Virus record (IMG/VR): IMGVR_UViG_3300038701_002226
Span: 1-41,910 of that record
Direction: 5' to 3' (one strand)
DNA length: 41,910 bases
Source of the DNA: a virus
The notes beneath the pieces are model-generated. The model had not been told where the DNA came from, did no database searches, and worked only from the letters and a program-made list of their open reading frames with translations. The translations under genes were made by a program, and so were the position numbers. Shown here piece by piece: positions 1 through 41,910 of the stretch; within the stretch, counting starts at the first letter, position 1, and the number at the start of each line of letters is the position of its first letter.

Positions 1-558
1 AGCAAATGCTGGCAACTGGCTAACGGAGCTATTTATGACGAAGACAGAAAAACACACTTCGTCCATAAAGCCAAAATAGACAGGCTTAAGCTAATTTACG
101 ACGGTATGAATGGCGGTTCATTGTTAGTAGGTTACTGGTTTCATTCAGACTTAGAGGCCATTAAAGAGGCTTTTAACACAAAAGAATATGCCGAAGATCA
201 CGTAGAGTATATCGAATCAGGCGTATCCAGCGAAGAAAGTGCTCGAATACAGGCAGACTTTAACTCAGGAAAGTGTCGCCTTTTGTTTGGCCAAATAAGT
301 AAAATAAGTCGAGGACTGAACTTGCAACATCACTGCAACCACCTGGTCCTGTTCAGCCAAATATTCGATCTGGACCACTACAATCAGATCATAGGTCGTC
401 TGGATCGAACGGGACAAAAGAAACATGTTTTTGTGCATCATTTAGTTGCTAAAGACACTGTAGACGAGGCTATGATAAAAATGCTACACAGTAAAACTAA
501 GACCCAAAAGAGACTGTTGGACTATCTAGCAGAATACAGGGAGGACAAGAACCTTTGA
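1..558 (+). CDS. SNF2-like DNA helicase, C-terminal part (continues from 40889)
   Basis: This is the C-terminal half of a superfamily 2 helicase whose N-terminal half is at 40889-41910. The two ends of the window overlap, so the gene is interrupted only by where the circle was opened. The frame is open from base 1. The motif SKISRGLNLQ fits helicase motif V, and QIIGRLDRTGQ is the motif VI arginine-finger signature typical of SNF2/RapA-type proteins. Joined across the overlap the protein is about 483 residues, a usual size for phage helicases of this type. It probably acts in DNA replication or recombination beside the polymerase and nuclease genes just upstream. Family recognition is firm; the exact role is inferred. 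Confidence 0.9.
   Translation, partial: SKCWQLANGAIYDEDRKTHFVHKAKIDRLKLIYDGMNGGSLLVGYWFHSDLEAIKEAFNTKEYAEDHVEYIESGVSSEESARIQADFNSGKCRLLFGQISKISRGLNLQHHCNHLVLFSQIFDLDHYNQIIGRLDRTGQKKHVFVHHLVAKDTVDEAMIKMLHSKTKTQKRLLDYLAEYREDKNL
3..126. repeat. terminal overlap, left copy (same as 41785-41908)
   Basis: Bases 3-126 equal 41785-41908 without mismatch; the outermost one or two bases at either end differ. The helicase frame is continuous through the overlap. The simplest reading is a circular or circularly permuted genome assembled with a leftover overlap of about one k-mer. Confidence 0.92.
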
Positions 559-9239: not shown

Positions 9240-9925
9240 CTACGTTATCCTTGGAGGAACTCCGTATATTTTCAACGCTAATTCCTTTTCTAATTTTGAG
9301 GAAATGTCATTAATTGTTTGCAAAGACTCATTTCTGTAAAAATATAACATATCTTTAGTGCAAGCACCAGACACAAAGTAACACAACTTTAGCATTTCTT
9401 CGTAACGGTGCTCAGGAGAAAAAGAGAGTTGTTCTTTTAACTTGGACTCCCTTTCGTCTAATTCAAGTATTATAGGGACCTTTGCTAATTCTTCATCCCC
9501 TTGAAGCGCAAAAAAACTTCGTTCAATGCCTCAAGAATTTGGGTCCCCGTAAGTTTTTTAATGTCCTTTTCCGTAAAAGACGCTTCGGTAGCTATCTCAA
9601 GAACAGACTTGTACAAAGGATCAGGCTCACCAAAAACTATTTCAGTTCTTTTTTTCTTTAGTTGGCCCATTTTTTCGTCTTGCAGACATGCGCTGTCTGC
9701 GTCCATATAAAAACGAACCAAAGAATCATTTTCAGAAGCCGTTAATTTCCTCTTCTCGCTGTTTTTCTTTTCCAACATTTGAATAACTTTAAGATTAGGA
9801 AGGGAACGCATAATTTGTATGCGTCTGGACTCTATTGCAGCGTCTAAAATAACTATATCCGAGAGGAGAATGTGCATCTGCGGAGTGTCTATCAACGCTT
9901 TAAAAGGTATTTTTTCTGTTTTCAT
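9240..9925 (-). CDS. tail assembly chaperone GT fusion (-1 frameshift product)
   Basis: This is a predicted 228-residue fusion made when ribosomes slip back one base on TTTTTTG within the G gene. After Leu139 (TTG at 9511-9509) the -1 frame continues A-L-Q-G-D-E-E-L and stays open for 89 codons to TAG at 9242-9240, two bases before the tape-measure ATG. The extension has no credible start of its own and fills an otherwise empty 245-bp gap. Such G/GT pairs coat the tape measure during tail assembly in lambda and many long-tailed phages. A weak CTTC/GAAG hairpin follows the slip site. Existence is inferred from sequence and gene order. Confidence 0.82.
9485..9925 (-). CDS. tail assembly chaperone, G-like (zero-frame product)
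   Basis: This 146-residue helical, charged protein lies immediately upstream of the tape measure. Its position, size and the slippery sequence near its 3' end identify it as the short chaperone of a G/GT pair. It begins MKTEKIPFKALID and ends KGMKN. The segment SVLEIATEASFTEKDIKKLTG is a typical helical stretch. The start ATG is preceded by AGCAAGGAATAAAA, one of several AGCAAGGA leaders in this genome. It has no recognised enzymatic motif. Confidence 0.8.
   Translation of the reverse strand: MKTEKIPFKALIDTPQMHILLSDIVILDAAIESRRIQIMRSLPNLKVIQMLEKKNSEKRKLTASENDSLVRFYMDADSACLQDEKMGQLKKKRTEIVFGEPDPLYKSVLEIATEASFTEKDIKKLTGTQILEALNEVFLRFKGMKN
9509..9515 (-). promoter_or_regulatory. -1 ribosomal frameshift site T TTT TTG
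   Basis: On the minus strand the zero-frame codons read GTT TTT TTG, giving the heptamer T_TTT_TTG, a valid X_XXY_YYZ slippery site. It lies eight codons before the zero-frame stop, and the -1 frame then stays open for 89 codons to just before the tape-measure gene. Confidence 0.82.
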
Positions 9926-9951
9926 TTTTATTCCTTGCTGTTAATTGTTTG

Positions 9952-11241
9952 TTACCACATTGCGTAGCCTAATTTGTGTAAATTCATCGACTGATTTCCT
10001 GACTCGTAAGAAGCCGAGACATTTATGTAATCGGTAGAGTCCCCTGCTGTGTTTGCGTTGTTAAATGTTATTGTCTTTCCAGAATCGTTTATCTCGGATT
10101 GTATTATTCCCATGGTCTTGTTCACGTAGTAGAGATTCTCCTGACTGAAATCAAGCAATATTATCCGCTCTGATCTTAGTGTAAAATCTTCGCCTACAAT
10201 TGTTAGAGTATGTTCTTTATCGTTTGCCGTTCCAGCGGTAGAGAACCACCGCACTCTTATTTCATTCGTTCCTTTAAGCTGTACGTAAAACCCGTCGTAA
10301 TCCTCCCCTTCATTCGCTCTAAATCTAAACACCGTTGCGTAATCGTCTTCTGCGTTGTCGTTCCATGTCATATCCATGAAAACCATCCCGTACTTAGAAC
10401 TTGATGCTATAGGCGTAAGTGCAGACTCTCTTAATATTGCAGGATTTACTCCGTCTAATGTATAATATCCTTTTGGGTTATACGAAGGGCCGTCGTCGGC
10501 AACTAACAACACAGAATTGTCGTGATTATGTAGTTGGCCTCCACCTGCTTGACCTAGATGGGAGGTATTCTTCCAATCCCAGAAGACAGGCAGTATTCCT
10601 CTTAGCTGGTACACTAAGTCTATCGTAACTGTAGACGACAGTATTGAGGCCACAACACTTCGTATTAACGAAGTGTATTCCCAAGCATCGTCACCAATAA
10701 ACATTCGAACGTTTTCCATGACGTAGTCTTGCATACGGTTATACGAATCGCTCACAGAAGCTTCAAATTTTATTCTTGTTACGTCGTTGCTCGTAACATC
10801 GACCGAGGCTTTTATTTGTGCATAATGAAGAATGGAGAAACATTCCACAGACTTTGCCGTCATTAGGGATGATATGTCAACTGTAGTTGTATCGATACCC
10901 AGTGAATTAAAAGACTTAAGATCAATAACAACCACATGAAGGCCTGTTTGGTCCATAATATCCTGACACTCTTCGACAGTAAAAGGAGATACAACCGTTC
11001 CTTCCACTTTAGCGATGCCTTCCAGTATCTTGGTCGCTCCTGTGTGTATTACAACAGAATTACCTGAGTCTACGCCTGTCTTCACCGTTTTGTGTTCGAA
11101 AACACCCAACAATTTCAACTTCTCTGCCTCTACGGAACAAGGGTAGTAATAGTCGTCTTTGTGTACTACTGCCAATATAGCTTTTGCTGATGTTATCACA
11201 GAGGAATCGAGTCGAGAACCTCTAAAAAGTTTTTCAGACAC
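9952..11241 (-). CDS. tail tube paralogue with C-terminal lectin-like domain
   Basis: This 429-residue protein starts at GTG with AGGA upstream. Its first 180 residues align along their length with the neighbouring 189-residue tail tube protein: both share the DSS-(V/L)-x-x-SAKA pattern near residue 12, a VxxHTG segment near residue 65, and a matching segment before a conserved acidic-aromatic region. The remaining 230 residues form an extra domain with a ConA-like jelly-roll look (YGMVFMDMTW, YDGFYVQLKG, IRVRWFSTAG). It is therefore probably a second tail-tube subunit or cap that displays a carbohydrate-binding domain. The paralogy is visible by eye; its place in the virion is inferred. Confidence 0.65.
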   Translation of the reverse strand: MSEKLFRGSRLDSSVITSAKAILAVVHKDDYYYPCSVEAEKLKLLGVFEHKTVKTGVDSGNSVVIHTGATKILEGIAKVEGTVVSPFTVEECQDIMDQTGLHVVVIDLKSFNSLGIDTTTVDISSLMTAKSVECFSILHYAQIKASVDVTSNDVTRIKFEASVSDSYNRMQDYVMENVRMFIGDDAWEYTSLIRSVVASILSSTVTIDLVYQLRGILPVFWDWKNTSHLGQAGGGQLHNHDNSVLLVADDGPSYNPKGYYTLDGVNPAILRESALTPIASSSKYGMVFMDMTWNDNAEDDYATVFRFRANEGEDYDGFYVQLKGTNEIRVRWFSTAGTANDKEHTLTIVGEDFTLRSERIILLDFSQENLYYVNKTMGIIQSEINDSGKTITFNNANTAGDSTDYINVSASYESGNQSMNLHKLGYAMW

Positions 11242-11835: not shown

Positions 11836-12333
11836 TTAGGAAGTTGTGAAAAAACTTCCTTCGTTATCAAATTCAACTGCAAACACCACAATGGTGTCTA
11901 AAACTTTCAAATCAGAGTACGCACCGATAGGTGTGTCTGCGACGTATTTCTTACCTCTTAACCAACTACCGTAAGGCGGAGGTCCAGTAAGTCTTTCTGA
12001 CCTTAAATTTACGAAATCATCATGCAAATATGCAACTTTAATTTCACGCTCTTTTTCAATGTCTGTGTCTTTGCCGCTTGCCGTAAAAACAGCATAAATG
12101 TTTAAGGTAAATGCAAAGGCTCCTACAATATTTTCGTCGTCGGAGTACTCGTCCGTATTGTCGTTTTCGTCCCTGTAGATGTAATACTGATCTCCTTTAG
12201 GAGGTCGGTTAGTGTCCAAAACTCTAGGGTGTGTTACATGAACGTTTGTTTCCGCGTACCTTTCAGGATACGTTTCAATCAACAACTCTCTTAGTCTGTT
12301 CATTATACGGGTTATTTTAGGTTCTACGGCCAT
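11836..12333 (-). CDS. tail terminator or tail completion protein
   Basis: This 165-residue protein begins MAVEPKITRIMNRL, with GGAGG eight bases upstream of the ATG. An N-terminal helix (IMNRLRELLIETYPERY) precedes alternating strands, including GAFAFTLNIYAVF and DTIVVFAVEFD, the alpha/beta layout of tail terminators that cap the tube and join it to the head. Its place between the gp10-like gene and the tail tube gene fits the standard siphovirus order. Direct sequence motifs are weak, so the call leans on synteny. Confidence 0.65.
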   Translation of the reverse strand: MAVEPKITRIMNRLRELLIETYPERYAETNVHVTHPRVLDTNRPPKGDQYYIYRDENDNTDEYSDDENIVGAFAFTLNIYAVFTASGKDTDIEKEREIKVAYLHDDFVNLRSERLTGPPPYGSWLRGKKYVADTPIGAYSDLKVLDTIVVFAVEFDNEGSFFTTS

Positions 12334-12336
12334 TTC

Positions 12337-12822
12337 TTATTTACCTCCAAGCATGTTTACGTACTTGTCTGCAAAGTGCCCTAACAATTTTTCAGAGGCG
12401 TGGTGGTAGAAGAAAGGGAATCTTCCGTCTAACTTTCCGCCTTCGCTTACTTCGTGGAAGTAAGGATAGCTAAATCCTGATCTCGGATTTGCTGCTTTGG
12501 TTCCAAAAGTAAGCTTAACACCTGTCCTAGACACCTGCAAATCAAAAACAGAATCCTCTGTAGGAGAACCTTTCGCAACACCTCTTAATGAGGCCTTCAG
12601 TTTTCCTGATGCCACTCTTAGGTGTTTCCCTGTATTCTTCTTTTTGTAGTGAGGTGCTGTGGGACTCCAACCTGACCTTTTTTGCATGTTCTTTTGAGCC
12701 TCTAAAGATACTTTCTTAGCAAACTCAACAAGAACCTTCTGGCTGTACGGAACAAGACTTTTTTCCAAATTTTTTATATGGTTTTTTGTCTTGGTTAGTC
12801 CCCTCATCCTGAACTTTATCAT
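12337..12822 (-). CDS. HK97 gp10-like head-tail joining protein
   Basis: This 161-residue protein starts with a helical region (HIKNLEKSLVPYSQKVLVEFAKKVSLEAQKN is helix-forming and charged), then a basic loop and a C-terminal part with FGTKAANPRSGFSYPYFHEV, matching the HK97 gp10 family pattern of G-T-x(n)-Y-(A/P)-x-x-x-E/H. Family members contribute to the head-tail neck. The start overlaps the upstream stop as TAATGA and has AAAGGAT nearby. The gene order around it is typical. Confidence 0.75.
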   Translation of the reverse strand: MIKFRMRGLTKTKNHIKNLEKSLVPYSQKVLVEFAKKVSLEAQKNMQKRSGWSPTAPHYKKKNTGKHLRVASGKLKASLRGVAKGSPTEDSVFDLQVSRTGVKLTFGTKAANPRSGFSYPYFHEVSEGGKLDGRFPFFYHHASEKLLGHFADKYVNMLGGK

Positions 12823-13385
12823 TAAGAAATCCTTTGTGGCCTGTAAGGAGACAAAATACCTTTTATTCTTTTTAGTGTTTCCAAGGTGTCAAAATCAAGA
12901 TCGACCCCGTTTGTAGACTTAGACAATAGATTAAAGGTGTTTAAAATAGTTTCGTCGCTGTTTTCTGGTGAGTTCATGTGCGAGTAGTAAAACTTACACA
13001 GCTCTAAACAAGCCAACTTTATGTCCGAAGGCACTGTGAAGTACCCATGGGTATACACTACCACAACCCCTCGTCTAGCCGTTCTCCAACCACTCATATT
13101 GTAAACGATACCTGTGCTTGCATCAAACACATAGTCTTCGGTAACTGTTAAAACAGCTCCGTTTATTGTTATAGAAGTTAAAGCTATGACAGGAAACTTC
13201 TTAAGGATAAGGGTATCCCTAAACTCGTCATGTATTTCTGTACTTGATGCGGACTCTATTTCACGTCCCAAGTACTTCTTAACCAACGAATCCACCCTGC
13301 CCACTAAGGACGTTATCAGCGTATCGTTATCTTTGCTGACTACTGCTTGATATTCTTTAAATTCGCTTACTGTTATTAATGACAT
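12822..13385 (-). CDS. head-tail connector (phage gp6-like adaptor)
   Basis: This 187-residue protein starts MSLITVSEFKEYQAV and contains LVGRVDSLVKKYLGREIE, the helix typical of gp6-like head-tail adaptors, then IHDEFRDTLILKKFPVIALTSI and VVYTHGYF followed by DIKLACLELCKFYY. These match the family pattern in which the adaptor binds the portal ring. The start has no close Shine-Dalgarno: AAGGA lies 25 bases upstream, beyond a perfect hairpin that would bring it to about nine bases when folded. Confidence 0.82.
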   Translation of the reverse strand: MSLITVSEFKEYQAVVSKDNDTLITSLVGRVDSLVKKYLGREIESASSTEIHDEFRDTLILKKFPVIALTSITINGAVLTVTEDYVFDASTGIVYNMSGWRTARRGVVVVYTHGYFTVPSDIKLACLELCKFYYSHMNSPENSDETILNTFNLLSKSTNGVDLDFDTLETLKRIKGILSPYRPQRIS

Positions 13386-17592: not shown

Positions 17593-19008
17593 TTAACCAG
17601 TGCGTGACAGAGAAGCAAGATTAAACTTTGCGCTGTCTCCTATTCCCGACACACTAAAGTTCCCTGCTCCTCTAAGCTTTCTTAAGGCCTTCAAGAACCA
17701 GTATATCAGAGCATCGGAGCAGTGGTCGTCTGTTTCAATAAGTTCGTCCAAGTACTCGTTCTCGCTACCTTTGACAGGCTTCATACCAAGGTCTAATATC
17801 TCCAGAGCGGCGTTCTCGCAGTCAGGGTGGATAATTATTTCGTAGGTGTTCAAGTTACCCACTACGTCTACCTTGTACGACTTCTCCTTAGAGCCTCGTT
17901 TCTTTTTAACAGGTTTGACAGTTCCAACACCGCCTGACTCAAGGTAATTCTCATTAAACTCGATAATGTTTTCAGGTCTGGCAGAGTCCGCAGACGCCGA
18001 CTTAAGGTGTGGCATACTCTTCGCCACCTTCTTTGCGAACGGGCCTACACGAACACCTCTAACATACACCTCATCAAATATGTATATTCTGCGACGCTTC
18101 TTGTCCAACCCTAGTTTAAGAATAACGTTCGGATCAATATAACCCCAATCGAGTCCTTCACCTACATAAAAACACTGATGGTACGCAAGGTCTTTGTTAA
18201 ATCTCTGAACACGGGCAGACTCATAAGCCAATTTGCCTGTTTGACCCCACATAGCCAATGCATAAACATTGTACTTCATCGGATTCGTCTTCTTAAAGTT
18301 CTCCAGTACTCTAACAGAATCCTTATCAAGAAAAGGGTTATCCAAATAAGTGGACTTCTTGAACGCAAAATCAAGGTACTTGGCATTTTCTGGGTGGAAG
18401 AAGTGTTTATACAGCCAGTTGTTCTTAGATATAGGGTTGAACGTGAGGATAAGCTTATTCGGACGAGCACCAACAGGCGGCTTAAGCCTAGCACGAATGT
18501 CTAACTGCTCGAAGTCGTCCTGATTCAGCTCGGTGGCTTCCTCGATCCAGACCGAGTTCACATCCGTCGATTTGATCTTCTCAGGATCATCCACCCCACG
18601 GAACAGTATCTCGTTACCGTTTATAATAAGGTTCTTATCCGTCTTATTCTCATCATAATGTATGTCGTACTTGTTACACAACTCTTTAACCAAAGCGTAG
18701 CAAGATGTCTTCAAAGACTGGCTTGTCTTACGAATAACATACCATCTTTGACCTGAACATCGCTGCCATTCCTGTGTTACCAAATATTGCGCAACAGTAT
18801 AAGACTTTCCTGAACCACCGCCACCGTAAAGTATCTCAACACGGGCCTTTTTCCCGCCTTCTACAGGTGTTTTGTTCTCTTCATCGAGGAAGTCCCAGTT
18901 GTGTTCGCACACGTCCAACACCAAGTCGTCGCTTGAATAGGACTCCTTAACGTCAATCGCACTTGTAAAAACCGTGAGGTCGTTCATATAACTTATAGAG
19001 CTTATCAC
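17593..19008 (-). CDS. terL: terminase large subunit
   Basis: This 471-residue DNA-packaging motor has an N-terminal ATPase with Walker A GGGGSGKS (residues 62-69), Walker B VWIEEA and the coupling region ILTFNPIS, and a C-terminal RNase H-like nuclease with acidic residues in VGEGLDWGY, SASADSARPE and DDHCSDALIYW. It resembles the Terminase_3/PBSX-type group. The start is GTG at 19008, sharing a base with the small-terminase TAG, with AGGAG about ten bases upstream. Length is normal for the family. Confidence 0.93.
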   Translation of the reverse strand: MISSISYMNDLTVFTSAIDVKESYSSDDLVLDVCEHNWDFLDEENKTPVEGGKKARVEILYGGGGSGKSYTVAQYLVTQEWQRCSGQRWYVIRKTSQSLKTSCYALVKELCNKYDIHYDENKTDKNLIINGNEILFRGVDDPEKIKSTDVNSVWIEEATELNQDDFEQLDIRARLKPPVGARPNKLILTFNPISKNNWLYKHFFHPENAKYLDFAFKKSTYLDNPFLDKDSVRVLENFKKTNPMKYNVYALAMWGQTGKLAYESARVQRFNKDLAYHQCFYVGEGLDWGYIDPNVILKLGLDKKRRRIYIFDEVYVRGVRVGPFAKKVAKSMPHLKSASADSARPENIIEFNENYLESGGVGTVKPVKKKRGSKEKSYKVDVVGNLNTYEIIIHPDCENAALEILDLGMKPVKGSENEYLDELIETDDHCSDALIYWFLKALRKLRGAGNFSVSGIGDSAKFNLASLSRTG

Positions 19009-19799
19009 TACCCTTGCTCCTGTTTCTTCTTCTCACGGCTGTGTCGGTTTATTATGACCCGTCTCTTCTCTTTTTGAAGAACCTTAAGCTCTGACTGGTC
19101 TTTAAACCCTGCAAAGTTCTGTAGAACCTTCATAACCCCTATAGGATTCTTCATGTACGGGTCCTGTAGCGTAGCAGAGCCTTGAGCCAACACAAGGTTA
19201 GTAAAAAAGTCCTTCACATCCTTAATTTGCCCTTCGGTTTCGTACTCTACCCACTCCCATGTAGGGACTCCAATAACAGCACAAAACTCAGGAACGGATA
19301 TATGGTACCGAACACCCAACTTATCTGCACAAAGCTTCTTGTACTTAAGATATTTTTCTGCACAATCCCTGAGGTACGCTGCGTTCTGCATAGCCAAAGG
19401 CTTTCTGCCCCATATCTTGTCGGATATTTTGTTTTTAATCTCTTCTGGCGCATCTTTGTCGTACAAAACAAGCAAATTAAACTCATCCTCGTACTGCTTT
19501 TCTAACTTGTCGCCTAAAGGTCTTGATACCAACACCTCAGTCTTAGGGTCACTGTGAGCCTCAAAAACCATCCCAAGACTTATATCAGAAACATTCTTTT
19601 GCCTTAGGAATATGTAAGTGTCTAACAAACACTCTCTTAATTCTTCGTTTACTTCTTTATTTAATCTTAAGGCCACTATGTTGTTGCCTCCAGAAGCTAC
19701 CTTTGTTTCGATGAACCCTATAAGCTCTTTGTCTTGTTCATCAAGGCTCTCTATCAGTTCTTCCATCGACTGATTACTTGATTTCCCTACTGTTGACAT
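19008..19799 (-). CDS. terS: putative terminase small subunit
   Basis: This 263-residue protein lies immediately upstream of the large terminase and overlaps it. Its second half contains VRYHISVPEFCAVIGVPTWEWVEYETEG, a helix-turn-helix-like segment, then IGVMKVLQNFAGFKDQSELKVL, which resembles the C-terminal helices of P22 gp3-type DNA recognition subunits (Lkn-x-x-G pattern). The C-terminus is very basic (KEKRRVIINRHSREKKK). The protein would recognise the packaging site. Its N-terminal 120 residues are unusual and unrecognised. The start has AAGGAG about eleven bases upstream. The call rests on position plus weak similarity. Confidence 0.7.
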   Translation of the reverse strand: MSTVGKSSNQSMEELIESLDEQDKELIGFIETKVASGGNNIVALRLNKEVNEELRECLLDTYIFLRQKNVSDISLGMVFEAHSDPKTEVLVSRPLGDKLEKQYEDEFNLLVLYDKDAPEEIKNKISDKIWGRKPLAMQNAAYLRDCAEKYLKYKKLCADKLGVRYHISVPEFCAVIGVPTWEWVEYETEGQIKDVKDFFTNLVLAQGSATLQDPYMKNPIGVMKVLQNFAGFKDQSELKVLQKEKRRVIINRHSREKKKQEQG

Positions 19800-20159: not shown

Positions 20160-20185
20160 AAAATCTCCTATGTCTGCTTAATCCT

Positions 20186-20214
20186 AATATACCCATTTTA
20201 TTGAAACCAAACAA
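20186..20214 (-). promoter_or_regulatory. candidate late promoter
   Basis: Read on the minus strand this is TTGTTT, a 17-base spacer and TATATT, ending about 26 bases before the ATG at 20159. It resembles a sigma-70 site and points into the whole structural operon. It was identified by eye only. Confidence 0.5.
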
Positions 20215-20462
20215 ATTCTGAAACCAAAAGCTGCTTTAAATTGCCTTAAGTTGTTGTTTTTATTGAAGTTACCCTGCACACACCTATTGAAAAATCGGCT
20301 GTATATCTCTTGTGCCAAGACCTCGCCCATTAGATTCGGTAAAAACGAATACTTACTTTTATAAGTAAACCTAATAAGCCAAGGCAACCTCAAGCCAAAC
20401 GAGCAATTTAATAAATTACACGTAGCCTAAAGCCGCCTAAAGCCGCCTGAATCAACCTAAAA

Positions 20463-20554
20463 TTGATTAAATCAGCCCTAAGGGTATGGCAGTTACTTTA
20501 AGTTGATTAAATCAGCCTTATGCTGCCTTATGCTGCTTTAAATTGATTATATCA
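20463..20554. repeat. TTGATTA units at 40-bp spacing
   Basis: TTGATTAAATCAGCC occurs at 20463-20477 and 20503-20517, and a variant TTGATTATATCA at 20543-20554. The starts are exactly 40 bp apart. Two CCTTATGCTG 10-mers fill the second interval. The core TGATTAAATCA is nearly palindromic. These look like regularly phased protein-binding sites. Confidence 0.7.
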
Positions 20555-20563
20555 TATATAATC
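20545..20563. repeat. AT-rich inverted repeat
   Basis: GATTATAT-CAT-ATATAATC is a perfect 8-bp inverted repeat with a 3-bp centre. It overlaps the third TTGATTA unit. It could be an operator or part of a DNA-unwinding element. Confidence 0.6.
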
Positions 20564-20617
20564 TGATTCAATCCGCTTTTGATTAGTTCAAGCCACCTTT
20601 TGCAATTGGTGTGATTT

Positions 20618-20653
20618 TGTTCCATTTTGGTACATGTGTTCCATTTTGGAACA
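20618..20653. promoter_or_regulatory. pair of palindromic operator-like sites
   Basis: TGTTCCA-TTT-TGGTACA (20618-20634) is followed by TGTTCCA-TTT-TGGAACA (20637-20653). The second is a perfect 7-bp inverted repeat and the first differs at one base. Their centres are 19 bp apart, close to two helical turns, so two dimers could bind the same face of the DNA. Confidence 0.65.
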
Positions 20654-20659
20654 TTTATC

Positions 20660-21080
20660 TGCACATACCCCTTGCACACACCCTAAAATCAATTTGAATT
20701 TGATTCATTTTACTTGGAGTCAATGATACCAACCTCAAGCGGCTTTGGAGGGGTTGAGAAATGACAACAACTACTCAAGGTCATTTTAGGCAAAATAGGG
20801 TGTGGCAGGGGGGTATGTGCAAGCTAAGTTGTTGTTTTTATTAGTCGGTGCACTAGGGGGGTAGTAAAATAGTATAAAACTATTATTTTTTTTTTCTTGA
20901 GTGTCGGCAGAATCAAGCATTTTAAAAACTTTTGAGGCAATTCTAGAGGGTATGTGCAGCTTGAGGCGCACCAACGCTTTGCAGCCTTGCTTAAAGTCGC
21001 CTAAGTCGTTAAAAGTCGCTTAGAATCGCTTCTTGCAACGTTTCACGGCAAAATAGGGTATGTGCAGCAGGGTATGTGCA
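20660..21080. repeat. iteron-like GGGTATGTGCA repeats
   Basis: The 11-mer GGGTATGTGCA is found in direct orientation at 20811-20821, 20948-20958, 21056-21066 and 21070-21080 and inverted at 20660-20670. One-mismatch inverted copies lie at 20673-20683 and near 20275-20285. Two copies are preceded by GGCAAAATAGGGT. The inverted copies are on the left and the direct copies on the right, giving a roughly symmetric array as seen in iteron-type origins. Confidence 0.7.
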
Positions 21081-21117
21081 GGTAGTTAAATTATTTTTTT
21101 ATTATGCAAAATAAAAC

Positions 21118-21145
21118 TTGCATTGATCAATTTAGGGCTTAAATT
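21118..21145 (+). promoter_or_regulatory. candidate early promoter
   Basis: TTGCAT (21118-21123), a 16-base spacer and TAAATT (21140-21145) lie about 37 bases before the first early gene at 21182 and directly after the last iteron copies, so a protein bound to the iterons could influence it. Match to sigma-70 consensus is moderate. Confidence 0.4.
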
Positions 21146-21181
21146 ACTCGTGTTAATAATAATCAAATAAAGGCGCTAGTA

Positions 21182-21364
21182 ATGCTTAAAGATTTAATTC
21201 TCACGGAAAAAACAGTATTCGGCAATGACTTAGTCTACCCTTCATGCGAGCAAAGCATTAAGATAGCTAAATTATTGGGTGTAAAGAGTTTCAATTCGGC
21301 TCAATTATTACAATTAAAGTCGATTGGTTTTGTTTTAAACATTCACAACAAAAAGGCGGTGTAA
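21182..21364 (+). CDS. small hypothetical protein, first early gene
   Basis: This encodes 60 residues beginning MLKDLILTEKTVFG. It is the first gene of the plus-strand accessory run and is preceded by AAAGG about ten bases before the ATG. The middle segment (SCEQSIKIAKLLGVKSFNSAQLLQLKSIGF) could form two or three helices, and a small DNA-binding role is conceivable but unsupported. Its stop TAA is followed one base later by the next gene. No family was recognised. Confidence 0.6.
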   Translation: MLKDLILTEKTVFGNDLVYPSCEQSIKIAKLLGVKSFNSAQLLQLKSIGFVLNIHNKKAV

Positions 21365-27789: not shown

Positions 27790-27793
27790 AACA

Positions 27794-27819
27794 AAAAACC
27801 CCTAATTAAAGGGGTTTTT
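27794..27819 (+). terminator. Rho-independent terminator
   Basis: AAAAACCCC (27794-27802), an 8-base loop and GGGGTTTTT (27811-27819) form a 9-bp stem ending in a T-run, immediately after the gene at 27445-27789. Confidence 0.88.
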
Positions 27820-27895
27820 CTGGAGAGAGCGAGTAATCCTAGAAAGCGCAAACCATTTAAGAACTGTTTAAAAGCTACAACAAAATAAGAGCAAA

Positions 27896-27918
27896 AGCAA
27901 GGAGGATATATGAAGTAG
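27896..27918 (+). other. strong ribosome binding site followed by a two-codon ORF
   Basis: AGCAAGGAGGATAT is followed by ATG AAG TAG at 27910-27918. Spacing from the Shine-Dalgarno core is ideal but the ORF codes only Met-Lys. Reading past the TAG meets a second TAG five codons later. It may be a leader or regulatory minigene, or the remnant of a deleted gene. Confidence 0.5.
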
Positions 27919-27934
27919 CCGAAAAAAGAGTAGC

Positions 27935-28020
27935 AGCCCGCATATTTTGTTAATTTTACAGCGCACCTGTTTTCATTTTTCTGAAAAAGGTCTAAGGTTG
28001 AAAACCCTGTTTAGCGGGCT
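27935..28020 (+). ncRNA. candidate structured RNA (three-way junction)
   Basis: AGCCCGC (27935-27941) pairs with GCGGGCT (28014-28020) as a closing stem. Inside, ACCT-G-TTTTC pairs with GAAAA-AGGT (27965-27991), and GGTTGAAAACC forms a short hairpin close behind. Together they make a plausible three-way junction in a 255-base gene-free stretch between a terminator and the membrane-protein gene at 28075. It could be a small RNA or a leader element. I match it to no known riboswitch class. Confidence 0.45.
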
Positions 28021-28074
28021 TGTTATCTCTGGATTTTTGATAAACAACAAACGGTTTAAAGAGAGAACGGAAAC

Positions 28075-33343: not shown

Positions 33344-33704
33344 ATCATATAAAATCCGAACATTTCTTGTGTTCCTGTTAATGATTACGTGGAGTGAGAT
33401 GCTTTCTGAGTACCCTTTTGCTGAAAATCTTGCTACGTTTATTATGTGGGTGGTTGTTCCTGTTTTAATAGTGTACAACACTTTATTAAGCACTATACCA
33501 TCCAGAAGAGCGAAAGAAAGTTTTTTAGAACCAGACGGGCGATTAAAACCTGCTTGGTCACTTCTCATAATAATTGACATGGTTCTTCTGGTCGTGGTTG
33601 CAGGACTAGGGTTGTTTTGGTACGCCGTGTATTACTTATTTGTTATTCTGTTTACTTGGTTTGTTTTTGGCGGGTTTTTGCATTCGTATCAAGAAGGGAG
33701 CTAA
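33330..33704 (+). CDS. multi-pass membrane protein
   Basis: This encodes 124 residues beginning MCLSRSYKIRTFLVFL. Three to four hydrophobic helices are visible: about residues 11-22, 36-52, 76-95 and 98-117, with a charged loop (SRRAKESFLEPDGRLKPA) in the middle. The start overlaps the preceding gene by 14 bases. Function is unknown; membrane proteins in this place can alter host envelope physiology or block other phages. Confidence 0.62.
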   Translation: MCLSRSYKIRTFLVFLLMITWSEMLSEYPFAENLATFIMWVVVPVLIVYNTLLSTIPSRRAKESFLEPDGRLKPAWSLLIIIDMVLLVVVAGLGLFWYAVYYLFVILFTWFVFGGFLHSYQEGS

Positions 33705-33705
33705 T

Positions 33706-34299
33706 ATGAAGTATATTATTTACGGACACAGCCTTGCGGGAAAAACACGGCTTCAAAAAAGACTTCGTGGGATGGGTTTCACTGCTGTTGTTTCGCACAC
33801 CACCCGAAGGAAAAGAAAAGGCGAAGTCAATGGAAACGATTACTTCTTTGTAGAACCTGCGGAATTTGCTATAATGTCGGTCAAAGGCGATTTCATGGAA
33901 ACAGCAACACACCAAGACACGGACGGAGAAGAGTATTGCTACGGCATGACTCATGAACAATGGGATAAATCGGACATTGTAGTATTGAATGCCCCAGGTG
34001 TTATGAACATTCCTGTGAGTAAATTAAGCAGGCTAGTAACAATAAAAATGACGTGCGACAGGGAGGAAGCGCTGTCTCGTCTTGAAAAACGGGGAATGCC
34101 TGCTGAGGGAGGTGTTGAAGGAATGTGGGCCAGAATCGACAGAGAAGAAAAAGAAATACTTAAGTTGGAAGACAAGTACCCTTTTGTACCTTCTATAACA
34201 ATAAGTTGTCGTAAAGGCCTTACAACCGTCAGATTCAAGCAAGCTGTTTTTGTTTCTGTCGCCCAAATGTTTAAAGGTATTTACAATATTCGCCTTTAG
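33706..34299 (+). CDS. guanylate-kinase-like P-loop protein
   Basis: This encodes 197 residues from the ATG at 33706, with AAGGGAG upstream. The P-loop is GHSLAGKT (residues 7-14), and VVSHTTRRKRKGEVNGNDYFFV matches the GMP-binding signature S-H-T-T-R-x-x-R-x-G-E-x-x-G-x-D-Y-x-F-V of guanylate kinases. ARIDREEKE fits the distal helix. It probably phosphorylates GMP/dGMP to supply nucleotides, though the LAG in place of the usual GAG loop and an insertion after residue 110 leave room for another NMP. A non-enzymatic relative cannot be excluded. Confidence 0.82.
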   Translation: MKYIIYGHSLAGKTRLQKRLRGMGFTAVVSHTTRRKRKGEVNGNDYFFVEPAEFAIMSVKGDFMETATHQDTDGEEYCYGMTHEQWDKSDIVVLNAPGVMNIPVSKLSRLVTIKMTCDREEALSRLEKRGMPAEGGVEGMWARIDREEKEILKLEDKYPFVPSITISCRKGLTTVRFKQAVFVSVAQMFKGIYNIRL

Positions 34300-34647: not shown

Positions 34648-36810
34648 ATGCAAACAGATAAAGAATTTTACAGTAGGTATGGCCTGCCTTTTGAAGATTG
34701 TCCTAAACTTGGGATTGAGTTCTTAACGGGGGTAGAGACAGGCAGAATTGCTTCTCACTACCACGCCGTACCTTCAATGCTTATAAAGTACCCGAACATT
34801 GACGGTACTTTCAGCACCTTTCATCGCATTCGATACACTGATCTTTATGCTATCCGAAAGTTAATATCAAAATCAATGTCAGGGTTTCAGCCCAAGGCCG
34901 ACAGTAAGAAAATAATGAGGTACCATCAACCCTCTGGAGAAGAACCAAGGCTCTATTTCTCTAACTACCTTAAATGGGATTTAGTGGTAGACAATCCTGA
35001 CGTGCCTTTGATTCTAACAGAAGGAGAAATGAAGGGAAACGCTGCGTGTAAGTACGGCATCCCTACTATTCCGATGGGCGGGGTCTGGAACTGGGCGTCA
35101 AAAACCAAAGAGGCGATAGACGACTTTAAGTTGATTATTTGGAAAAACAGGAAAGTAATCATCTTATTTGACTCTGATGTTGCTTCAAATCCGAAGGTCA
35201 AAAAAGCCTTGTACAGCCTTTGCGAATACTTAACTAATCAAGGTGCAAAGGTATTTCACGGAGGTGTGTGGCACGAAGACTTGGATTTGGACCCAACAAT
35301 AAAATTAGGCATAGACGACTACTTGATGAAGTACGGGAAAGAATCTTTTAACGAGTTTTTAAAGTCGTCTCATATCCAGTCTTACGACAAAGCGGCAAAA
35401 CTACACAAGTTCAACAGTCAGTTTTCGTACATACGCAGGAAAAAGTACATTCTGGAACACAAAACAAACGACATGATTAAACCGTCTGATTTCACAAATC
35501 ACTACGTGTCGAACCAGTACATGCTTATCCCTAAAGACCCTTTAGACCCTAAGTCAAAATTGGTACGAAAAAAAGTAGCCAATGAATGGATAGGGTGGGA
35601 GCAGCGATCAGAGCTCGAAGACATCACTTACGCCCCAGAGCAGCCTGAGATAATCGACGGAAAGTACTTCAACTACTGGAAAGGATGGGCCGTAGAACCT
35701 GTTGAGGGAGATGTAAGCAACTGGCACAGGTACATGGAACATATTTTTGGACCAAACAACGTGGACGACAGAGCGTACTTTGAAGATTGGCTTTGTTATC
35801 AAATGCAACACGCAGGCGAAAAATTATACACGGCCGTTGTCTTTTGGTCCCCAGAGAACGGTTCAGGGAAATCCATTTTGGGTACAATACTGGGAGCTAT
35901 CTTCGGTACGAAGACACCCAAAACTCCGTGGGGAAACTATGCGGTAATCGAAGATAAAGACTTAAAATCGGACTACAACGGCCATTTGGCCCACACTCAG
36001 TTTATCATGGGTGACGAGATAATGGCCTCTACAGGAAATATCCGCAAAGAAGCTGATGCCATTAAACGAATAATCACAGCAGAGATTCACACAGTAAATG
36101 AGAAATACAAACCGCAATACACTACAGAAGTTGTTGCCAATCTTTTTTTCACGTCAAACCACCCTGACGCTTTCTATTTAGACGAGCACGACAGGCGGTT
36201 CTTTATTTGGCGTGTTCGGGGAGGTATTTTAGATGTTCATTTTGCCACAAAAATTTTGGATCCGTGGTGTAAATCAAAAGAAGGAGCAGGTGCTTTGTTT
36301 CACTACTTTTTAAACAGAAAAATAAGCAAGGACTTTAACCCTAAAGGCCGTGCGAGAGAAACGGAAGACCGAGACATGATGATCGAAGCCCACAAATCAG
36401 CCGTTGAGGTTTGGGTCAGTGATCTTGCTTTGGCTATACAACAAGGAGACGAAGAGTGGCTGGAAGGCAATCTTAAGTATCTTGAAGAAACAATAAAATC
36501 CGACCTTCTTACAGGGAAAGATTTGTTCCTTATATGCCCCGAGGTAGGGTCGGGCAGCACTCAAACCAATGTAAAACTGACCACGTTCTCAGGAAAACTG
36601 GCAAGCGCCAAACTACCCAAACTTGGCGAGGCATCCAACAAAAACAACCAAGTATCCCTTGGCAAAGAAGGAAGGCACAGGTTCTACACAGTGAGAAATC
36701 ACGAAAAATGGGACAGGGCATCACCAGAGGAGATCAGGGCTTACTTAGAAGAACAAATAAAAAACGGACAGTGTCTACTAAAAGAAGGCTTCGGATCACA
36801 ATTTAATTAA
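34648..36810 (+). CDS. primase-helicase (Toprim-like DUF3854 plus SF3 helicase)
   Basis: This 720-residue protein would prime and unwind DNA for phage replication. The N-terminal part has a Toprim-like core: LILTEGEMKGNAACKYGIP near residue 124 (catalytic Glu) and VIILFDSDV near 174 (DxD). The C-terminal helicase has Walker A SPENGSGKS near residue 402, Walker B-like QFIMGDEIM, and sensor-like LFFTSNHPDAFYLDEHDRRF, as in SF3/DUF5906 proteins. There is no CHC2-type zinc finger at the N-terminus. AGGAAG precedes the ATG. Domain assignment is confident. Confidence 0.88.
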   Translation: MQTDKEFYSRYGLPFEDCPKLGIEFLTGVETGRIASHYHAVPSMLIKYPNIDGTFSTFHRIRYTDLYAIRKLISKSMSGFQPKADSKKIMRYHQPSGEEPRLYFSNYLKWDLVVDNPDVPLILTEGEMKGNAACKYGIPTIPMGGVWNWASKTKEAIDDFKLIIWKNRKVIILFDSDVASNPKVKKALYSLCEYLTNQGAKVFHGGVWHEDLDLDPTIKLGIDDYLMKYGKESFNEFLKSSHIQSYDKAAKLHKFNSQFSYIRRKKYILEHKTNDMIKPSDFTNHYVSNQYMLIPKDPLDPKSKLVRKKVANEWIGWEQRSELEDITYAPEQPEIIDGKYFNYWKGWAVEPVEGDVSNWHRYMEHIFGPNNVDDRAYFEDWLCYQMQHAGEKLYTAVVFWSPENGSGKSILGTILGAIFGTKTPKTPWGNYAVIEDKDLKSDYNGHLAHTQFIMGDEIMASTGNIRKEADAIKRIITAEIHTVNEKYKPQYTTEVVANLFFTSNHPDAFYLDEHDRRFFIWRVRGGILDVHFATKILDPWCKSKEGAGALFHYFLNRKISKDFNPKGRARETEDRDMMIEAHKSAVEVWVSDLALAIQQGDEEWLEGNLKYLEETIKSDLLTGKDLFLICPEVGSGSTQTNVKLTTFSGKLASAKLPKLGEASNKNNQVSLGKEGRHRFYTVRNHEKWDRASPEEIRAYLEEQIKNGQCLLKEGFGSQFN

Positions 36811-38662: not shown

Positions 38663-40621
38663 ATGTTTTTAGACCCCGACAAAGAAGAACTCTATATCGG
38701 ATTTGATATAGAGTCACTTCCGATCACAGATAAACAACCCTACCCAAAACCTGTTGCTTTTTCTACGTACACGTACATAGAATTAACGGAACAGAAAAAA
38801 GAGTCTTACGTTTACGAAGACGTAGAACAAGAACTGGCCAAACTTTACGATCATTGCGAAGAGACAGGCTCTATCCTTGTAGGCCACAACCTGTCTTATG
38901 ACTTCACCTGTATTAAACACCATTTTGGTATTGATTTCTTTCAGTTGGATTACGAAGACACTATGACTTTAGCTTGGCTTGTCAACCCTGAACTCAACCC
39001 TGATTACGGGGAACTTAAGCTTAAGAATCTAAGCCATAAATGGTGTCAAATTCCTCCTGACGAAGAGGAGGAAATCAAGCACTGGTTGTTCAACAACCAA
39101 GAGTCCTTCTATGAAAAGTACCTCAACGACACCAAAGGAGGAGACCCTTTTTTCAAGCTAGAACCAAAAGACACGAGAACTAAGAAAAAAGGCGACCTAA
39201 TAAGGCGCAAACTGACTTGGTCAGGTTGGGGCGGGTTTCTTTGTGAAGCACCTCTGGAACTTCTCAAGCCTTACGCTATAGGGGATTCATACAGGACATA
39301 CACTCTGTTTATGCACATTGTGAAGAAGACCCACCTTAAGAACGATGATCTAGTGTCCTCGATACGTAAAACATACCTTCGTGAGCTTAGACTTCAAGAG
39401 CTTCTTGCTAGACGAACATTAAAAGGTATTCGTTTGGACGTGGCTCAAATGAAGGAAGACAAACAGGTAATTGAGGAGTGGGTTAAAGTACTTTGGGCTG
39501 ACCTTTCTGATCTCCTAGGAATTACGGCTATATCTCAAAAACAACTCATTCCTGCTTTGTTACGCACAGGAGTTGTTAAAAAGTACAGCGACTTCAAAAT
39601 AGCAGGAAACAAAAACAGAGACGACCAAGGAAGACTCTACCCGTCTATATCGGCGGAAGCTCTTGAACTGGCTTCCGACCACGTTGTTATGAAAGACCTT
39701 ATTCTATACCAAAGGCTTAAAAAATTCAAATCTACGTATATTAACAATTGGTTGGACAGACTAGACGGTGACCGCATACACATGAGTTTCTTCACTTTAT
39801 TAAACACAGGAAGAATTTCCGCAGGAAATTTGAGCAACATTCCCAAACGAAAAGCTAAGGAAGTTATAAAATGTTCGCCTAAATACGCCCATATGCAGGT
39901 CCCAAGAGTTCGTAAATACATCCTTCCTGACAGTGACGACCATGTGCTAGTTGTGATGGATTACGCAGCTCAGGAAATAAGACAACTGGCCCACTTTCTT
40001 AAACCGAATACAAGACTTCCTCAAGAGTTTATCAACAACCCAAGGGTGGACATACACCAAAGGACAGTGGATATTTTCAGGGATTCTTTTGGTTTACACG
40101 TTGTTCGTGACGACTCCAAAGCAATTAACTTTGGCATTGTTTACGGGTTAGGTTTACCCGCACTCGCCAAAAAAATGAAGCGATCACTAGCAGAGGCCTC
40201 AAGGTTTCTTGATACCTATTACGAAACTTTCACAGGAGTCAAAACACTTATAAAAACCGTAAAAAATATTGTTGAGGGTGGCGGTTTTATCCGAACAATA
40301 GGTAAACGAAAATTTTATCTAAGAGACACCCGTGCCTATAAGTATATGAACTACCTCATACAAGGATCGTCGTCTGATCAAACAAAAGCAGCTATTGTCA
40401 AACACGGAACAGTTGAAGAAAACGGAAGATTCAAAAAAGACACAGAGTATGTGAATGATTTCCTCATGCCTTTGCACGATGAAGGCGTTTTTTCAATACC
40501 GAAGTCAAGGTTGCACAGGTCCATGGTTTGGGCTAGGAATTGTATGGAACACTGCGGTTTAGAATCCATTATCCCCTTTAAAGTTGACATAGAAATAAGG
40601 AAACACAACTATGACAGGTAA
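38663..40621 (+). CDS. family A DNA polymerase with 3'-5' exonuclease
   Basis: This 652-residue replicative polymerase has an N-terminal proofreading domain: GFDIESLP (D15, E17) as ExoI, LVGHNLSYDF as ExoII and YAIGDSYRTYTLF as ExoIII. The polymerase core carries motif A VMDYAAQEIRQLAHF, motif B RDDSKAINFGIVYGLG, and motif C MPLHDEGVFSIP. The catalytic acids of motifs A and C are intact. The length is close to T7 DNA polymerase. There is no 5'-3' exonuclease domain. The start is preceded by AGCAAGGACATT. Confidence 0.93.
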   Translation: MFLDPDKEELYIGFDIESLPITDKQPYPKPVAFSTYTYIELTEQKKESYVYEDVEQELAKLYDHCEETGSILVGHNLSYDFTCIKHHFGIDFFQLDYEDTMTLAWLVNPELNPDYGELKLKNLSHKWCQIPPDEEEEIKHWLFNNQESFYEKYLNDTKGGDPFFKLEPKDTRTKKKGDLIRRKLTWSGWGGFLCEAPLELLKPYAIGDSYRTYTLFMHIVKKTHLKNDDLVSSIRKTYLRELRLQELLARRTLKGIRLDVAQMKEDKQVIEEWVKVLWADLSDLLGITAISQKQLIPALLRTGVVKKYSDFKIAGNKNRDDQGRLYPSISAEALELASDHVVMKDLILYQRLKKFKSTYINNWLDRLDGDRIHMSFFTLLNTGRISAGNLSNIPKRKAKEVIKCSPKYAHMQVPRVRKYILPDSDDHVLVVMDYAAQEIRQLAHFLKPNTRLPQEFINNPRVDIHQRTVDIFRDSFGLHVVRDDSKAINFGIVYGLGLPALAKKMKRSLAEASRFLDTYYETFTGVKTLIKTVKNIVEGGGFIRTIGKRKFYLRDTRAYKYMNYLIQGSSSDQTKAAIVKHGTVEENGRFKKDTEYVNDFLMPLHDEGVFSIPKSRLHRSMVWARNCMEHCGLESIIPFKVDIEIRKHNYDR

Positions 40622-40946: not shown

Positions 40947-41910
40947 TAAAGGAAGGACTACAACACCAAGGTCGATTAATACTGGCCGATCTTGGTTCAG
41001 GAAAAACACGGGCTATGTTAGAGATAATAAAGTACCGCAAGCATCTAGGACATCTTAAGGCCCCTGTTATGGTTTTATCTACTAAAGAAATCGTAGCAGG
41101 AACATGGCCTACGGACATCCCCAAATGGACGCCTGAATTGTCTTTTACAAGCTTAGTCGGCTTAAGTCCTCGTGATCGTGAAGAGGCAAGTTACGACCCA
41201 ACAGACATCCATTTGCTAAACATTGACACGGTTCCGTTGAACTGGTTCTTCGACAAGGTTACAGACACCTACAACCTGACAAAGAAACTTCCGTACAGCA
41301 TGATTGTTTTAGACGAATCTACGCTGATAAAAAACACGGTCAACTCTAAGCGATGGAAGGTTATGAAGCAACTGGCAACTCTTTTCTGGAAAGAAGGAGC
41401 TTATTTATATGCTATGACGGCTGAACCCGCTCCAAACGGCCTGCTCAACATGTTTCCTCAGGTAACATTTGTGCGTCCTGACGGTGAAGCATTTGGCACA
41501 CATCACCCAACAACATTTAAGTCTATGTTTTGCTACCCTGACCCAAGAATACCCTATAAGTTTCATGTCAGGGATGATATGGTAGACGTACTTTACGAAC
41601 GTATTGCAAGAGTGTCTACACGGGTAAAACTGGACGCAAACCACACGAAAGGACATACGAAAAACATTGTTCCTGTGGTTCTTCCTCCTAAAGTGAGGGA
41701 TCAATACAAAGACATGCAGAAGAAATTCTTCTTGGAAATCGACGGCCAAAAAATAACAGCGGTACAGGCAGCAGCTAAGATGGCCAAATGCTGGCAACTG
41801 GCTAACGGAGCTATTTATGACGAAGACAGAAAAACACACTTCGTCCATAAAGCCAAAATAGACAGGCTTAAGCTAATTTACGACGGTATGAATGGCGGTT
41901 CATTGTTACT
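40889..41910 (+). CDS. SNF2-like DNA helicase, N-terminal part (continues at 1-558)
   Basis: The frame from the ATG at 40889 stays open to the window end and matches the frame at 1-558 across the 124-base overlap. Walker A is LADLGSGKT (residues 32-40), Walker B is MIVLDES, and YLYAMTAEPAPNG fits motif III. These place it in the SNF2-related branch of superfamily 2. The gene overlaps the VRR-NUC gene by 58 bases. GAAGGAA lies upstream but with wide spacing, so translation may be coupled. SNF2-VRR-NUC gene pairs are common in phage replication modules. Confidence 0.9.
   Translation, partial: MVSNTQNTLPPLFEGQRKIVKEGLQHQGRLILADLGSGKTRAMLEIIKYRKHLGHLKAPVMVLSTKEIVAGTWPTDIPKWTPELSFTSLVGLSPRDREEASYDPTDIHLLNIDTVPLNWFFDKVTDTYNLTKKLPYSMIVLDESTLIKNTVNSKRWKVMKQLATLFWKEGAYLYAMTAEPAPNGLLNMFPQVTFVRPDGEAFGTHHPTTFKSMFCYPDPRIPYKFHVRDDMVDVLYERIARVSTRVKLDANHTKGHTKNIVPVVLPPKVRDQYKDMQKKFFLEIDGQKITAVQAAAKMAKCWQLANGAIYDEDRKTHFVHKAKIDRLKLIYDGMNGGSLL
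41785..41908. repeat. terminal overlap, right copy (same as 3-126)
   Basis: This is the second copy of the 124-base end overlap. Joining the copies gives a unit of about 41,782 bp. A true short direct terminal repeat cannot be ruled out from sequence alone, but a physical end in the middle of a helicase gene would be unusual. Confidence 0.92.

Follow-up and report, generated by a model that had tools for sequence, protein, structure and literature searches.

The question raised by this phage genome is where its DNA replication begins, and whether the one large non-coding gap between its divergent transcription units serves as the origin, as a packaging site, as a transcriptional control element, or as more than one of these. 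The window, that is, the whole stretch of DNA analyzed here, is a virus contig of 41,910 bases, whose ends (window positions 1-125 and 41786-41908) overlap by ~122 bp within an SF2 helicase gene; the map is therefore very likely complete and circular, with a length of ~41.8 kb. Both transcription units start at the gap (20160-21181, 1,022 bp). The leftward, late unit begins with a 76-aa ORF and a 263-aa ORF, followed by the large terminase gene (TerL, 17593-19008, minus strand), which is the first recognized gene of this unit, and then by portal, head, and tail genes; a possible small terminase gene, proposed from position alone and without a family match, is located at 19008-19799 (minus strand). 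The rightward, early unit starts at 21182 (plus strand) with small unknown genes and also encodes guanylate kinase-like, primase-helicase, PolA (38663-40621), resolvase-like, and SF2 helicase products. The guanylate kinase-like gene (33640-34299) is located directly 5' of the primase-helicase gene, and the early unit ends with a gene for a GroES-like co-chaperonin (752-1057). Near the end of the tail genes, a perfect 12-bp tandem repeat (GCTTATACTGCT, 5.3 copies, 2742-2805) is likely a coding repeat.

The first-pass annotation had described the region as free of genes and located between the late and early units, which proved correct: the gap contains only short ORFs, with TerL on the minus strand on one side and the early genes on the plus strand on the other. 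It is the only large gap of the genome and holds the whole array of short repeats (iterons) described below. A 285-bp gap at 27790-28074 contains no iterons and has a terminator-like hairpin (AACCCCTAATTAAAGGGGTTTTT, 27795-27825), likely an intrinsic terminator that splits the early unit. An Rfam scan of the large gap yielded nothing above the gathering score and one chance-level match to mir-375, a tRNA search of the gap found none, and RNA folding of the gap gave no significant fold.

All copies of GGGTATGTGCA reported in the first pass, five exact and two near ones, lie within the gap, and no other site of the window scores as high in a PWM scan; the arrangement reported for them, with inverted copies on the left and direct copies on the right, was also observed. 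On the minus strand, an exact copy at 20660-20670 forms a tandem pair, at 13-bp spacing, with a one-mismatch copy at 20673-20683, and the outermost copy, AGGTGTGTGCA at 20275-20285, has two mismatches. On the plus strand, exact copies are located at 20811-20821, 20948-20958, 21056-21066, and 21070-21080, the last two forming the second tight tandem pair, at 14-bp spacing. A degenerate half-copy, AGGGTGTGGCA (20797-20807, plus strand), precedes the iteron at 20811 and belongs to a 26-nt inverted repeat (81%; 20660-20685 versus 20796-20821, 110 nt apart) that joins the innermost iteron pairs. The sequence GGCAAAATAGGGT, which had been seen to precede two of the copies, leads into iteron clusters at 20789-20801 and 21047-21059 (both plus strand), and these are its only exact occurrences in the whole window. 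When up to two mismatches were allowed, GGGTATGTGCA had 14 matches in the window versus 5.8 expected, a number reached in none of 100 shuffles. Furthermore, when the sequence of the 1,022-bp gap was shuffled 5,000 times with a Markov model, only 4 shuffles had any 11-mer, low-complexity words included, at least five times.

The gap also contains a 10-bp phased array, two 18-bp IHF-like copies, and tandem palindromes, which go beyond the earlier description. The helically phased array of 10-bp units (consensus ~CYGCYTWAAK; 20421-20610, plus strand) has the highest period-10 score of the genome (z ~12; 12.3, the sd across the genome being 1.2 and the second-highest score 5.4), with lags of 10, 20, 30, and 40 all prominent, and its AT-rich dinucleotides have a period of 9.9 bp that is the strongest in the genome. 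A smaller set of like units, TCGCYTAAAG, is found at 20985-21035 (plus strand). Two identical copies of the 18-bp element TAAGTTGTTGTTTTTATT are located at 20247-20264 and 20825-20842 (both plus strand), the latter just 3' of the iteron at 20811-20821, and each has one mismatch to the IHF consensus. Two tandem 17-bp palindromes, TGTTCCATTTTGG[A/T]ACAT (TGTTCCATTTTGGAACA), 19 bp apart at 20618-20654, look like operators of the dimeric-repressor type; the whole window holds no further match to them with two or fewer mismatches. With the phased 10-bp array, the 18-mers, and the tandem palindromes all in one gap, this therefore appears to be a composite control region rather than a simple iteron array.

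For the origin, the first pass had found no recognizable initiator and had proposed that an uncharacterized one might be present among the small early genes. The first statement was mistaken and the second is not needed, given the 720-aa product of the gene at 34648-36810 (plus strand), a candidate initiator that combines a DnaG-type primase (DUF3854, TOPRIM-like, E 3e-17) and an SF3 helicase (DUF5906) with a C-terminal probable winged helix. In the predicted structure (pLDDT 90), residues 1-320 match the DnaG fold (Z 13-15), and residues 247-685 match SF3 helicases, namely those of NrS-1 (Z 26.7), the SaPI5 primase-helicase (Z 18.7), PriRep1 with dsDNA (Z 14.2), and papillomavirus E1 (Z 13). 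The C-terminal 150 residues, when modelled alone (pLDDT 84), have a winged-helix-like order of elements, and their best structural matches are mostly winged-helix proteins, all of them weak (Z < 5). The origin-binding domain of P4 alpha was absent among the matches listed for this domain, which is no evidence against a likeness. No RepA-type initiator was recognized among the scanned genes.

As modelled, the protein would share its architecture with the initiator alpha of phage P4, the winged helix at its end being a probable one. P4 alpha is a TOPRIM primase-helicase whose winged helix binds the repeats of the origin (PMC4234260); here, as in P4 with its ori and crr repeats, one protein would combine a DnaG-type (TOPRIM) primase with an SF3 helicase and a DNA-binding part at the C terminus, and short repeats occur in the replicon (PMC4234260). 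However, the repeat sequence differs from that of P4, the winged helix is weakly supported here, and the present genome belongs to a complete tailed phage that itself encodes a PolA. The self-loading helicases SaPI Pri-Rep and SCCmec Cch2 share the D5/SF3-type helicase fold, as in SaPI5, and it has been reported that SaPI Rep and SCC Cch2 bind the iterons via the C-terminal domain of the helicase (PMC7581432). In contrast to the present phage, with its array 13.5 kb upstream of the gene and its DnaG-type primase, those systems have the origin just downstream of the helicase gene and an AEP-type primase. The closest solved SF3 part, in sequence and in fold, is that of the NrS-1 primase-helicase, whose N-terminal part, in contrast, is an AEP PrimPol. 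Stenotrophomonas phage AXL3, Pseudoxanthomonas phage PW916, and phage ctUtU524 have a ~33% identical primase-helicase, a PolA, and divergent terminase and replication genes, but their primase-helicase gene adjoins the point of divergence. Bacterial iteron plasmid origins also combine several short repeats, direct and inverted, with IHF-like sites and AT-rich segments, unlike the present gap in that the latter comes with neither a RepA-type initiator among the scanned genes nor DnaA boxes.

No DNA-level relatives were found among named phages and plasmids, single-protein searches with the genes flanking the gap returned none, a TerL search gave one distant locus, and no phage close enough for alignment of the gap was found by DNA, protein, or pattern searches. 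Exact-pattern scans of viral contigs for the iteron pair and for GGCAAAATAGGGTATGTGCA likewise had no match. A search with the primase-helicase matched 219 related stretches in one viral collection. The comparison set comprised 80 loci from the primase-helicase alignment (~30-35% identity), with ~25 whole records read, and gaps of at least 250 bp upstream of the primase-helicase gene were compared, with repeat families scored against shuffles. Over-represented short repeats were present in 11 of 31 enzyme-upstream gaps and in 3 of 56 other gaps (Fisher P = 0.0005), one of the latter three being a coding pentapeptide repeat. Apparent arrays in three related phages were rejected as coding sequence of pentapeptide-repeat-like genes, located ~3.3 kb 3' of the primase-helicase gene (L160 3738-4505; L096 13510-13971; L145 ~9300-10500).

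The repeat differs from phage to phage (ATCTGAAACGG in G011, CCCTTACGSC in G007, AAGGCAACWGGCAACT in G029, AATTCGGA in L026, AATGCAC in G023, and ACCATATC in G026), and because iteron sequences differ among phages, GGGTATGTGCA itself has no support from conservation. Common to the arrays of the relatives are inversion and tandem pairing at 7-10 bp, and their centre is often AT-rich. Within a clade whose enzymes are ~70-80% identical, a TGTAGC core persists while the remaining gap is unalignable; over nine loci, this hexamer occurs 27 times in ~10.6 kb upstream versus 11 times in ~37 kb elsewhere. Inverted sets of TGTAGC iterons are found upstream of the primase-helicase gene in L045, L055, L060, L065, L078, L008, L012, and L041, and they flank AT-rich DNA in L045, L065, and L078. 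Arrays are not universal, since AXL3, PW916, and ctUtU524 have none in the equivalent gap.

An element CTAAGTNNTTGATTTATAAG, whose core TAAGTNNTTGAT contains the IHF consensus, recurs beside the iterons of the relatives, and TAAGTNNTTGAT is enriched upstream of their primase-helicase gene (10 versus 3, P = 9e-6, with loci that are not all independent). No other site in the window matches a PWM derived from the relatives as well as the two TAAGTTGTTGTTTTTATT copies do, although 3 of 12 shuffles contained similar or higher scores. The possibility that CTAAGTNNTTGATTTATAAG is specific to this type of origin was discarded, as it occurs in many phages in varied non-coding contexts; it is a widespread element that fits the IHF consensus and is, on its own, weak evidence for an origin. 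The motif CTAAGTNNTTGATYTATAA was found in at least 120 stretches of viral contigs, with 70 of 85 examined matches (80 contigs, L162-L241) being non-coding and with terminase, RNA polymerase, VapE-primase, and other genes as neighbours; it contains the IHF consensus, yet extends beyond it and is less variable.

The best single reading of the gap is still a replication origin, as had been proposed for the array before, here of the iteron type and served by the phage's own primase-helicase; we consider the chance that this reading is correct to be about even. In such an origin, GGGTATGTGCA would be the binding site of the primase-helicase, which may bind the paired, inverted sites via its C-terminal domain and assemble as rings on the two sides. 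The rings would then open a neighbouring AT-rich segment, either the one at 20840-20929 (70-75% AT, with an AT hairpin and a T10 run), a possible unwinding element, or the one at 21080-21199 (68-77% AT, 3' of the last iteron pair), which could be an unwinding element or the zone of the early promoter, and the enzyme would prime both forks for PolA. The IHF-like elements by the iterons and the 10-bp phased DNA may bend or wrap this complex. This reading is supported by the non-random array and its confinement to the gap, by the presence of a candidate initiator, by the arrays upstream of the enzyme gene in relatives, and by the enrichment of the IHF-consensus element there. The array of G023 adds to this support: it adjoins the primase-helicase gene and lysis genes rather than the terminase, and with a lysis unit as its neighbour, the array therefore follows the enzyme. 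Against the origin stand the distance of 13.5 kb between enzyme gene and array, which are adjacent in the relatives, and the composition of the 110 bp between the innermost inverted sites, which at 55-63% AT are not AT-rich. The gap also has no cluster of DnaA boxes, whose matches are at chance level, and no exact IHF consensus, and the lack of arrays in AXL3, PW916, and ctUtU524, the missing conservation support for GGGTATGTGCA, the low Z scores of the winged-helix matches, and the shuffles that equal the IHF-like PWM scores also count against it. The cumulative GC skew, which had been suggested as a check, does have its minimum at ~20.5 kb, but transcription diverges at the same place, so that it does not discriminate.

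In the relatives, the arrays usually have the enzyme gene on one side and, on the other, a divergent unit with a terminase or with an antiterminator and a terminase, and origin and packaging functions are therefore confounded in the comparison. The gap could be a packaging site (pac or cos), with the repeats, the 10-bp array in particular, being bound and bent or wrapped by the small terminase ahead of cutting by the large terminase. The gap is directly upstream of the terminase unit, and a DNA-wrapping "nucleosome model" for the small terminase has been discussed, although it was reviewed as unsupported so far (PMC9611059). Furthermore, the pattern (GCYTWAARYN)3 was found in 20 other viral contigs (L282-L301), where all 21 matches are non-coding and a large terminase gene is located ~0.6-1.5 kb from the array in 13 of the 20. 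Of these 13, 11 are closely similar loci that belong to a single family, the other two being L291 and L294, so that the link to the terminase extends over ~4 lineages, the window being the fourth, and short contigs and the one large family weaken the statistics. In the other 7 contigs, no terminase is present in the fragment. The array of L291 is very long, with near-identical units, and in L293 an SF3 primase is found near the 10-bp unit. The 10-bp array was rejected as a trait common to primase-helicase phages, since all enzyme-upstream gaps examined had period-10 scores of 3.7 or less, compared with 12.3 here. G043, which has a related terminase, carries eleven copies of ACCASTTTTTG in a 1.4-kb gap just 5' of the small terminase gene; in L161 (~11870-13300, equal to L002 4300-5710), the 1.4-kb gap has eleven ACCASTTTTTG copies in both orientations 5' of a small and a large terminase gene. 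A packaging site would account for the 10-bp array more readily than for the inverted GGGTATGTGCA copies, and the iterons of G023 adjoin no terminase; on balance, we regard it as a rather unlikely explanation of the gap. It is more doubtful still that the gap acts as a combined replication-packaging switch, in which GGGTATGTGCA would load the primase-helicase and a small-terminase ring would wrap the 19-unit 10-bp array with one subunit per helical turn.

Control of transcription, in which GGGTATGTGCA would be the site of a phage regulator or antiterminator, read along both divergent units, and the palindromes at 20618-20654 would be repressor operators, is likewise unlikely in our estimation. 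Each GGGTATGTGCA copy does read in the direction of the unit on its side, the two tandem palindromes resemble operators, and in two relatives the divergent late unit beside the array has an antiterminator-like gene (phrog_6386) as its first gene. However, the copies and the start of the early genes are separated by as much as 370 bp, the first leftward ORF is 115-520 bp away, no comparable copy of GGGTATGTGCA precedes other genes, and in the gap, promoter-like matches are at chance level and neither a terminator-like site nor an RNA fold was found. It is very improbable that the 11-mers are a functionless relic or a by-product of local duplication. The pair at 21056 and 21070 and the two GGCAAAATAGGGT copies do show recent local duplication, but the copies are spread over 800 bp in both orientations and have identical 11-bp cores between diverged flanks, unlike the product of simple duplication, and comparable arrays occur in relatives. 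An origin, a packaging site, and transcription control may also coexist within this one kilobase.

If the gap is an origin used by the primase-helicase, the two would make up an initiator-origin pair for the phages with DUF3854-DUF5906 primase-helicases, a large group that is mostly uncultured. The survey predicts the positions of origins in phages with this enzyme, and predicts that the C-terminal domain of each enzyme has co-evolved with its own iteron. How the small terminase recognizes DNA is a key question that is still unanswered (PMC9611059), and the 10-bp phased arrays 5' of terminase genes offer a specific DNA substrate for it. If the replication-packaging switch proves to be true, it would give the disputed "nucleosome model" a counterpart at the sequence level, recurring in several unrelated phages.
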